Shown here: one piece after another, positions 26,731 through 28,895 of the stretch
Layout: each line of letters starts with the position of its first letter
Position numbering within the stretch: the stretch's first letter is position 1
Assembly (NCBI GenBank): GCA_947462255.1
Contig: CANHOA010000009.1
Coordinates: forward strand, 1-64,000
DNA length: 64,000 nt
Direction of reading: 5' to 3'
From: Flavobacteriales bacterium
Lineage (GTDB): Bacteria > Bacteroidota > Bacteroidia > Flavobacteriales_D > Crocinitomicaceae
Notes under the pieces: model-generated
Told to the model about the DNA's origin: nothing
The model's database searches: none
The model's input: only the letters and a program-made list of their open reading frames with translations
Translations under genes and position numbers: made by a program

Positions 26731-27030
26731 ATGCAAAAACAAGTACACACCATTCATTTCAAGGCTGATAAGGACTTACTAAAATTTATCGATGAAAAAT
26801 TAGATAAGCTCACTTTGTTTTCCCAAGGTATTACAAACTGCGAAGTTTATTTAAAGCTAGAAAAAGACGTCAACCACGAAAATAAATTAGTGGAAATTAA
26901 ACTTCATGTGCCTGGCAAAGAGCTATTTGCCAAAAAGCATAGTGCTAGTTTTGAAGAAGCTACTAACCATGCCTTGGAGGCATTGAAAAAACAATTAATA
27001 AAAGAGAAAGAGCAGGGCTTAGATGGATAA
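26731..27030 (+). CDS. hpf: Ribosome hibernation-promoting factor (HPF/RaiA family)
   Basis: 99 aa, short-form HPF/YfiA. The beta-alpha fold pattern starts IHFKADKDLLKFIDEKLDKL; VEIKLHVPGKELFAKKHSASFEEATNHALEALKKQL carries the conserved DxxxAI-like helix (here FEEATNHALEAL). It binds the decoding region of idle 30S/70S ribosomes in slow growth. Ten bases after the recombinase gene; its last 12 bases overlap the convergent reverse gene. Confidence 0.9.
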   Translation: MQKQVHTIHFKADKDLLKFIDEKLDKLTLFSQGITNCEVYLKLEKDVNHENKLVEIKLHVPGKELFAKKHSASFEEATNHALEALKKQLIKEKEQGLDG

Positions 27031-27390
27031 AATCCTATCTATAACCATGCTGAGAATGCGTTTATTTAATTCTGTCCGATTAGCAAGATAAAACGAATAT
27101 TCATCGCTCGTCATAAGACCAGTAACCATACCGAAATAGCGATTTTTTAGATCTGGAGATCGTGAAATACCACTCTGAATAGCTTGTCTAAATTCAGCGC
27201 CATTCCATCTTTTTTCCTTTATTTGAAGGAAGAATTGATTTTGTTTTAACTCTAGTACCCAGAGTTCATGCTGATATTTTAATATCGGACGCAAGACTTG
27301 GTTTTGGAATTTCTCCAATGGTTTTTCGTTCCCCCCATCCAAAAATAATAGTGGGCGGAGAGCTAATAATTCCTCGCTTCGATTTTCCAT
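27019..27390 (-). CDS. Conserved-looking hypothetical protein, 123 aa
   Basis: No family recognised. No signal peptide or membrane segment. The N-terminal part (LLALRPLLFLDGG) is followed by amphipathic helices with a mixed-charge pattern and a C-terminal helix ending NKRILSMVIDRILSI. Likely cytoplasmic and helical. It lies 14 bases after the degenerate DEAD-box-like gene in the same reverse cluster, so a joint role is possible, and it overlaps the 3' end of hpf by 12 bases. Codon use looks like the neighbours. Confidence 0.75.
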   Translation of the reverse strand: MENRSEELLALRPLLFLDGGNEKPLEKFQNQVLRPILKYQHELWVLELKQNQFFLQIKEKRWNGAEFRQAIQSGISRSPDLKNRYFGMVTGLMTSDEYSFYLANRTELNKRILSMVIDRILSI

Positions 27391-27404: not shown

Positions 27405-27977
27405 TTATAATTCCGTTTCGATAATTAGTTGATGGGGAGGCATAAATTGATCAACATAATTCGTGATTCGCTCATCAGCGAAACTTGTTAGAAACAATAA
27501 TTGCTTACATTTAGGTAAGCTTTCAGCGATTCGACCAATGAAGCCTAACCATCCGTATTTTACTTGTTCGTCAAGTTTTAGCACTACGAATAGTTTTAAT
27601 TTACTAATGTTAAATCCATTTTGAAAATACATTTCACAAACTCGTCTAGACGTTCCTACGATTATTTCTGTACCATCGTAAAGATCGTTTCGCTGTTTCA
27701 CCTTGTTCCCTTTTTCCAAAAGCAAATCTAGTGTTAAGTCCCTTTCTTTAATAAATGGTGCCAATTGATTCGCTAACTCTTGGGCAAGTGTATTATCCGG
27801 GCAAAGTATGATCATGCGTGGCGCCCCTTCTTCAGGCTCAGGTATGGTTTGAACGATAAGTTCTTGGATTAATGAAATAGAGGGCGATAAAATCGACACA
27901 CAAATTGCCGACTGACCTGACTTTATGGCCTTTACTATTTTCAAATGGTGTGCTTCGCTATTCTCTGTACTGCTCAT
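27405..27977 (-). CDS. Degenerate DEAD-box-like protein (single RecA-like domain, catalytic motifs lost)
   Basis: 190 aa, about the length of the first RecA domain of a DEAD-box RNA helicase with no second domain. The framework survives: LCPDNTLAQEL (58-68) resembles motif Ia PTRELAQQ, IIVGTSRRV (105-113) resembles motif Ib, and LPKCKQLLFLTSFADE resembles the strand carrying motif III. The Walker A loop reads KSGQSA (19-24), with Gln in place of the ATP-binding Lys; the DEAD position reads LKLD (133-136), and SAT reads LTS (163-165). It therefore should not hydrolyse ATP. Start ATG overlaps the stop of the MazG-like gene (4 bases). Confidence 0.75.
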   Translation of the reverse strand: MSSTENSEAHHLKIVKAIKSGQSAICVSILSPSISLIQELIVQTIPEPEEGAPRMIILCPDNTLAQELANQLAPFIKERDLTLDLLLEKGNKVKQRNDLYDGTEIIVGTSRRVCEMYFQNGFNISKLKLFVVLKLDEQVKYGWLGFIGRIAESLPKCKQLLFLTSFADERITNYVDQFMPPHQLIIETEL

Positions 27978-28297
27978 AACTTAGGGTTATTGAGATGCCT
28001 TTGATGATCTCTTTTCGTTTTTTTTGTTAAATTTAATTCCATCGCTTTAGTTAAATCAACGCCTGTTTGATTGGCGATGCAAACAAGCACAAAGAGTACA
28101 TCGGCTAATTCATCGGCTAATTCCAAATTTTTCTCTGATTCCTTTTCGCTTTGTTCGCCATATCGTCGTGACATGATTCGAGCTACTTCCCCTACTTCTT
28201 CCATAAGGATAGCAGTATTTGTTAATTCATTAAAATACCTGACACCATGGTCTTTTATCCAATTATCAACTAATTTTTGCGTTTCTTCGATCGTCAT
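27974..28297 (-). CDS. MazG-like nucleotide pyrophosphohydrolase
   Basis: I chose the ATG at 28297 (MTIEETQKLV), giving 107 aa; the upstream frame runs into ribE. The all-alpha NTP-PPase motif is visible as EEVGE (33-37) and ELADELADVLF (59-69), the ExxE/ExxD metal-binding helices. Such enzymes hydrolyse (d)NTPs to the monophosphate and pyrophosphate, usually for house-cleaning. The substrate is not known. Four bases after ribE and overlapping the DEAD-like gene by four, so clearly cotranscribed. Confidence 0.88.
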   Translation of the reverse strand: MTIEETQKLVDNWIKDHGVRYFNELTNTAILMEEVGEVARIMSRRYGEQSEKESEKNLELADELADVLFVLVCIANQTGVDLTKAMELNLTKKTKRDHQRHLNNPKL

Positions 28298-28301
28298 TGC
28301 A

Positions 28302-28895
28302 TTAAATTTTTGATGACAAAAGCCACTTAGATACATACTTTCCAATAATATCAAATTCTATGTTAACGCTATCTCCAACCTTCAGCTCGTGAAAATTAGT
28401 ATTGTGATACGTATAAGGAATGATACAAACTGAGAAGGATTCGCTACCAGAATTCACTACGGTTAAGCTTGTTCCATTAATAGTTATTGACCCTTTTTCC
28501 ACCGTAATTTCCTTAGAGTGATGCGAAAAATCATATTTCCAACTTCCATTTTCTTCCGAAATATTGGTACAAGTTGCGAGGCCATCTACATGGCCCTGAA
28601 CGATATGCCCATCGATACGCCCATTCATCAACATTGAACGCTCGAGGTTTACCTTCGTTCCTACTATCCAATTCGATAAATTGGTCACGGACAATGTTTC
28701 TTTTATTGCTGTTACTACGTAAGATAAGTTGGTCTTATCAAGATCAACTACGGTAAGGCAACAGCCATTATGGGCAACACTTTGGTCTACTTTTAATTGG
28801 TCAGAAAAGGCCGCTTGTATGGTAAAGTTTACATTATCTTTTTCGATTTGAATGGCGACTACCGTACCCATTTCCTCAATTATTCCTGTGAACAT
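28302..28895 (-). CDS. ribE: Riboflavin synthase alpha chain
   Basis: The start at 28895 gives MFTGIIEEMG, the invariant N-terminus of the family; the in-frame start 27 bases upstream is discarded. 197 aa, with two lumazine-binding repeats (first ~1-90, second starting near GHIVQGHVDG). It dismutates 6,7-dimethyl-8-ribityllumazine to riboflavin. The other rib genes are elsewhere, and there is no room for an FMN riboswitch in the 46-base upstream gap. First gene after its own promoter box. Confidence 0.95.
   Translation of the reverse strand: MFTGIIEEMGTVVAIQIEKDNVNFTIQAAFSDQLKVDQSVAHNGCCLTVVDLDKTNLSYVVTAIKETLSVTNLSNWIVGTKVNLERSMLMNGRIDGHIVQGHVDGLATCTNISEENGSWKYDFSHHSKEITVEKGSITINGTSLTVVNSGSESFSVCIIPYTYHNTNFHELKVGDSVNIEFDIIGKYVSKWLLSSKI

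Follow-up and report, generated by a model that had tools for sequence, protein, structure and literature searches.

A gene in the 64,000-nt window (the whole stretch of DNA analysed) encodes a protein with the outline of one half of a DEAD-box RNA helicase and with replacements at the sites where the catalytic motifs are expected. The locus raises the question whether this is the remnant of a helicase or a protein that has been kept for another task, and, in the latter case, for which one. The features on which the analysis is based are the following, all on the minus strand:

27405..27977, minus: one-domain DEAD-box-derived pseudohelicase, 190 aa (ORF, Pfam, predicted fold)
27873..27896, minus: site of the vanished P-loop, SILSPSIS, residues 28-35, with Ile34 in the column of the Walker lysine (alignment)
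27606..27716, minus: conserved segment, residues 88-124 (EKGNKVKQRNDLYDGTEIIVGTSRRVCEMYFQNGFNI), with the lowest mean entropy among six stretches compared
27570..27581, minus: motif II position, LKLD replacing DEAD, residues 133-136 (L133-D136; alignment)
27483..27491, minus: motif III position, LTS replacing SAT, residues 163-165 (L163-S165; alignment)
27974..28354, minus: MazG-like nucleotide pyrophosphohydrolase ORF, upstream (Pfam MazG, E=1.7e-14)
27019..27390, minus: 123-aa protein, downstream, predicted to be helical, with an LRP..FQN..LRPILK motif (no Pfam family)

The pseudohelicase gene and its predicted fold

The ORF runs from ATG to stop, is intact and occupies exactly positions 27405-27977 of the minus strand. 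The gene order, all on this strand, is a riboflavin-synthase-like ORF (recognised by eye), mazG, the pseudohelicase gene and the 123-aa gene. The pseudohelicase ORF overlaps the MazG-like ORF by 4 nt and is separated from the 123-aa ORF by 14 nt, in agreement with the intact 190-aa frame and the tight operon described in an earlier note on this DNA.

A Pfam scan of the protein returned a single family, DEAD (PF00270), with 39.4 bits versus a cut-off of 26 (E=6.5e-10, residues 41-164), and therefore the match is not due to chance. Among the NCBIfam models, DbpA, RhlB, CshA and other helicases were matched, all far under their cut-offs, and a phmmer search of the PDB retrieved DEAD-box sequences from E=9.9e-9. 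AlphaFold2, applied to the window protein together with 19 relatives, yielded a pLDDT of 85.3 and a pTM of 0.86. The top ranks of a Foldseek search were taken by DEAD-box domain-1 structures, i.e. the Hera N-terminal domain, BstDEAD, and a DEAD-box RNA helicase (E 2.0e-11 to 6.5e-11), and VIA-align gave Z scores of 20.3-23.3 with 168-186 aligned residues among the 50 matches listed. The predicted fold is that of the first RecA-like domain (RecA1) of a DEAD-box protein; the framework that the earlier note had recognised in the sequence was thus recovered by structure prediction and fold search alike.

The window protein shares the fold and the ancestry of domain 1 with the canonical helicases RhlE, CshA, DeaD, and eIF4A. 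In contrast to them, it has no domain 2, P-loop, DEAD, SAT, or GG motif. The features that define a DEAD-box helicase are therefore only in part present: PF00270 homology and the RecA1 fold were found, whereas Walker A (GxGKT), DEAD, SAT, and the second RecA domain are all absent. The alignment with canonical domains confirmed LKLD at the DEAD position and LTS at the SAT position. The Gln that had been proposed to replace the Walker A lysine turned out to be a misalignment. Gln22 (in SGQSAI) aligns just ahead of motif I, opposite the canonical GGQEVI, and precedes the strand that leads into motif I in both the alignment and the predicted structure. The column of the Walker lysine is occupied by Ile34, within SILSPSIS, so that the entire P-loop has been lost rather than one lysine exchanged for Gln. 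The T..R of motif Ib is retained. Taken from the sequence, the architecture is that of a pseudohelicase; helicase activity is very unlikely, and the window lineage very probably does not bind ATP. The Pfam label "DEAD/DEAH box helicase", although assigned above the cut-off, is misleading for this P-loop-less protein.

With 2.67 Mb on 42 contigs and a completeness of 95.34%, the window genome contains one copy of the pseudohelicase gene and six full-length DEAD-box-family ORFs that match it. A split helicase with its domain 2 encoded elsewhere is unsupported, as all 14 Helicase_C matches above the cut-off in this 95.34% complete genome reside in ORFs that are 388 aa or longer. A profile search found no Helicase_C match on the window's contig (C9), so that the absence of a second domain, as claimed earlier, holds.

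Distribution of the family and history of its motifs

One-domain relatives were found in five families (f1, f6, f41, f43, and f46), all from one bacterial class; "f1-type" denotes the window's own family. A one-domain ORF of 181-247 aa (E<=1e-10) is present in 66 of 100 genomes of f1, the window genome included, and in 42 of 120 genomes of f6 at E<=1e-25. At least 14 of the 198 genomes of a phylum sample have such an ORF, only from f1 and f6 among the matches listed, and an order sample added 11 further genomes from f41, f43, and f46. The named relatives are metagenome-assembled genomes labelled Flavobacteriales or Crocinitomicaceae; a few are labelled Chryseobacterium gleum or Polynucleobacter, and these labels are probably wrong. 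Eight f6 relatives (L059-L065 and L067) combine a P-loop and a DDAD-like motif II with an acidic tail at the C terminus.

For the alignment, only part of the family genome matches were taken as loci. One fragment-like sequence (L105, 181 aa) was removed from the alignment and the trees, leaving 99 of 100 one-domain rows, which were drawn only from f1, f6, and genome-contig loci. One sequence with a very long branch (L007) was left out of two of the three trees, and the motifs of ten rows from f41, f43, and f46 were scored outside the trees.

Exact DEAD, SAT/TAT, and GG motifs each occur in none of the 99 rows, and GK[T/S] occurs in 60. The ten further rows likewise have no DEAD, SAT, or GG motif, and all ten have GK[T/S]. 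The retention of GK[T/S] in so many rows that have none of the other motifs indicates that the P-loop was lost later and, among the rows seen, only in the f1-type. Loss of the helicase motifs is thus family-wide and loss of the P-loop lineage-specific. Of the orthologues with intact GKT and DEAD that, according to the earlier note, would refute its reading, those with an intact P-loop thus exist, and none with DEAD was found among these rows. At the second position of motif II, 68 of the 99 rows have Asp and 4 have Glu. In motif Ib, T is found in 89 rows and the basic position is R in 86 and K in 9; for motif Ia the values are 5 (P), 12 (T), and 31 (E).

In the tree, a single branch with a support of 100/94 separates the 99 one-domain rows from all other sequences, and the group remained whole when the P-loop and motif II columns were removed (SH-aLRT 92). 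Five two-domain proteins of f3 (L069, L070, L072, L073, and L074) adjoin it with a support of 100/99. Like the one-domain family, this sister group has no SAT (0/5) and no GG (0/5). Unlike the window protein, its members have a P-loop (5/5) and a second domain, and their motif II reads DDAD, DDAE, or DNAE. The C-terminal part scored 30.8 and 24.1 bits against Helicase_C (cut-off 23.5) in two of the three proteins scanned and was unrecognised in the third; no HRIGRTGR was seen by eye in the four inspected at full length. These five proteins appear to be full-length pseudohelicases that have kept the P-loop and have no SAT.

The best tree implies about four losses of the P-loop, and the well-supported branches of the three trees, which are not decisive on this point, force three, three, and two, respectively; according to a program warning, the long-branched L035 may have been joined wrongly to one of the P-loop-less groups. 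An acidic pair at motif II is present in 57 of the 60 rows with a P-loop versus 4 of the 39 without it. These raw counts are strong, and a tree-aware comparison of the joint loss offered only two independent pairs, on starred branches. Together, these distributions suggest an order of events. An ancestral two-domain DEAD-box protein would have lost its helicase competence with SAT of motif III, motif GG, and exact DEAD; the one-domain lineage would then have lost the entire second RecA domain; and several branches, that of the window included, would have lost the P-loop thereafter, usually along with the acidic pair of motif II.

Selection on the gene was estimated from NG86 dN/dS values of sequence pairs, excluding pairs whose dS was saturated or undefined; the pair medians do not include L044, L050, and L054. 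The whole-gene median for the window clade, from 11 usable pairs out of 28, is 0.136; the sister clade, with 34 of 36 pairs usable, has 0.044. The core (residues 49-135) has medians of 0.063 (11 of 28) and 0.020 (31 of 36), and residues 1-48, which once included the P-loop, have 0.340 (23 of 28) and 0.110 (35 of 36), the highest of the three parts of the gene. Selection on the gene is purifying, and the gene is not decaying. The claim of a maintained gene is in accord with dN/dS values well below 1 and with the occurrence of the one-domain ORF in about two thirds of the f1 genomes.

The column entropies reveal where the constraint lies. For residues 88-124, the mean entropy is 1.51 bits in the family and 1.50 bits in canonical helicases. 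In contrast, the family values are much higher than the canonical ones for the N-terminal part (2.38 versus 1.37 bits), the motif II region (2.21 versus 1.17 bits), and the motif III region (2.46 versus 1.60 bits). Therefore, conservation has left the ATP site and has stayed around motif Ib, where the pattern QRN...G[TA][ED]I..GT.[KR]R...[YF].QNG.N is found. The most constant residues of the 99 rows include Q95 (89), G102 (99), T109 (89), R112 (86), N120 (84), G121 (92), N123 (84), R149 (96), and S153 (96). Residues 91-100 have a pLDDT of <50 even though they lie within the segment that varies least in the family, so that the case for a role of this loop comes from conservation and not from the model.

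Comparison with proposed pseudohelicases and related proteins

Utp25/Def is described as a pseudohelicase of the eukaryotic SSU processome and is reported to be essential; the respective paper calls it only the second proposed pseudohelicase, Deinococcus radiodurans PriA being the first (PMC9539457). Utp25 resembles the window protein in having a DEAD-box fold with vestigial, non-catalytic motifs and in being conserved; in contrast to the one-domain bacterial protein, it is eukaryotic and combines two RecA domains with a disordered N-terminal region. The argument made for Utp25, i.e. vestigial motifs within a conserved helicase fold, applies equally to the window protein as predicted, and its architecture is similar to that of the eukaryotic pseudohelicases. 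The UTP25 profile (PF22916) did not match the window protein at E<=5 and is absent from the best 25 of the 37 Pfam families listed for A1; it was matched at E<=1 by 7 of 15 canonical helicase domains.

Cms1, a small DEAD-like protein, is a component of the 90S pre-ribosome. During formation of the SSU processome, it is described as acting early, on the 3′ major domain (PMC6579516). The CMS1 profile (Cms1/CMSS1, PF14617) was matched weakly (E<=1) by 11 of 25 family members, the best one seen reaching 21.6 bits versus a cut-off of 35, and the window protein was unmatched at E<=5. Membership was rejected: 8 of 15 canonical helicase domains also match the profile, and therefore the similarity is generic. 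In none of the 20 genomes searched and none of the 14 controls did the profile score above the cut-off.

PriA belongs to the PriA-type DNA helicase lineage and is not known to be a DEAD-box protein or a single RecA1 domain. The likeness of the D. radiodurans protein to the window protein is that of a bacterial pseudohelicase from a helicase family, reported to have negligible unwinding and ATP hydrolysis (PMC4504706; PMC9539457). Among the open-licence literature matches listed, no title concerned the one-domain bacterial family, which thus appears to have gone unremarked there.

Gene neighbourhoods and possible functions

The pseudohelicase is kept by selection and therefore presumably binds something. 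In canonical helicases, the motif Ib side of domain 1 contacts RNA, as do motifs Ia and GG. With T..R of motif Ib kept, motifs Ia and GG gone or nearly so, and no positive charge, RNA binding is plausible from the sequence. The net charge of -4 and the acidic tails of several f6 relatives do not favour it. On balance, we favour a maintained pseudohelicase in which the remaining RecA1 domain probably serves as an ATP-independent binding module of an RNA-protein complex, or, put more generally, as a binding or scaffold protein of some RNP kind. Its working surface would most likely be the conserved stretch around motif Ib, and its probable role would be in the assembly or regulation of such a complex, where it could hold RNA or dock to the ribosome or an active DEAD-box helicase.

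A more specific proposal is that the widespread one-domain pseudohelicases of Bacteroidota are ATP-independent factors of ribosome or RNP assembly, or regulatory factors, and a convergent counterpart of Utp25 and Cms1; we regard this as a tentative idea. If true, the binding face would have stayed constant through repeated losses of the ATP site, a natural experiment that separates the role of RecA1 as a scaffold from that as a motor. The graded states, from two-domain proteins without SAT via one-domain proteins with a P-loop to those that have lost it, would allow stepwise tests of binding versus catalysis.

Gene neighbourhoods were surveyed at 70 loci, 68 of which have a family member, 64 with one domain and 4 two-domain f3 proteins; no family ORF was recovered at L105 and L178. 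At both f43 loci, the pseudohelicase gene is immediately preceded by a DEAD-box ORF whose motifs are canonical (L194:4550-6301, L188:3312-5110). In L188 this helicase gene is split into two ORFs, and in L194 the stop-to-start spacing is 12 nt. This arrangement is compatible with a regulator of an active DEAD-box helicase, i.e. a lone RecA1 domain that would stimulate or inhibit the enzyme by docking on it or on its RecA2. Docking on a helicase has been proposed for Utp25 (PMC9539457), and candidate partners are present in the window genome with its six full-length DEAD-box-family ORFs. However, a comparison of ORFs of the same similarity cluster detected the adjacency at only 2 of the 64 one-domain loci, and we consider a dedicated helicase regulator rather unlikely.

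Among 24 f1-type loci, 12, several of which are from the same genus, have mazG directly upstream, and 5 have rsgA-dtd-mazG upstream. The 123-aa gene is directly downstream at 8 of these 24 loci and is downstream at 19 of 19 genome-contig pseudohelicase loci, which belong to close relatives. This linkage, and the 4-nt overlap in the window, could reflect a function in nucleotide metabolism, in which the pseudohelicase would cooperate with both operon neighbours, the MazG-like pyrophosphohydrolase and the helical 123-aa protein. In contrast, no mazG-cluster ORF was present at the f6, f41, f43, and f46 loci inspected. Neighbours vary by clade, and the linkage of mazG and the 123-aa gene is confined to f1-type loci. 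Therefore, the mazG link cannot explain the whole family, and we judge such a function improbable. The use of neighbours as a clue to function was rejected for the same variation between clades; the presence of rsgA-dtd and of the helicase next to the f43 genes points at most weakly to translation, RNPs, or helicases.

A nucleotide-binding switch, in which ATP or another nucleotide would still be bound via non-canonical residues, is suggested by the many relatives that have kept the P-loop, nearly all of the 60 aligned ones together with the acidic pair. Nevertheless, the window lineage has neither, and its N-terminal part is the least constrained of the gene, so that we regard a switch as highly doubtful for this protein. 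A decaying gene or a truncation artefact, compatible with the loss of domain 2 and the catalytic motifs, is already contradicted by the median dN/dS of 0.14 and 0.04, by open frames in many genera, and by the lack of a domain-2 match on the contig.

Of the products of the neighbouring genes, the 123-aa protein was characterized further. It is predicted to be helical (pLDDT 84.0, pTM 0.75), and FQN.VLRP.LK.Q is invariant in 18 aligned rows. Its fold had no match in the PDB at E<=0.001, a profile search of PDB sequences gave a best E of 0.21, and Pfam matches were weak, with E values of 0.075 or worse. The number of sigma-70-like sites, 11, is close to the 10.6 expected by chance, and that of terminator-like sites is 4 versus 1.7. 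On the plus strand, a gene of the ribosome-hibernation type (Pfam S30AE, 26731-27030) converges on the 123-aa gene with an overlap of 12 bases.
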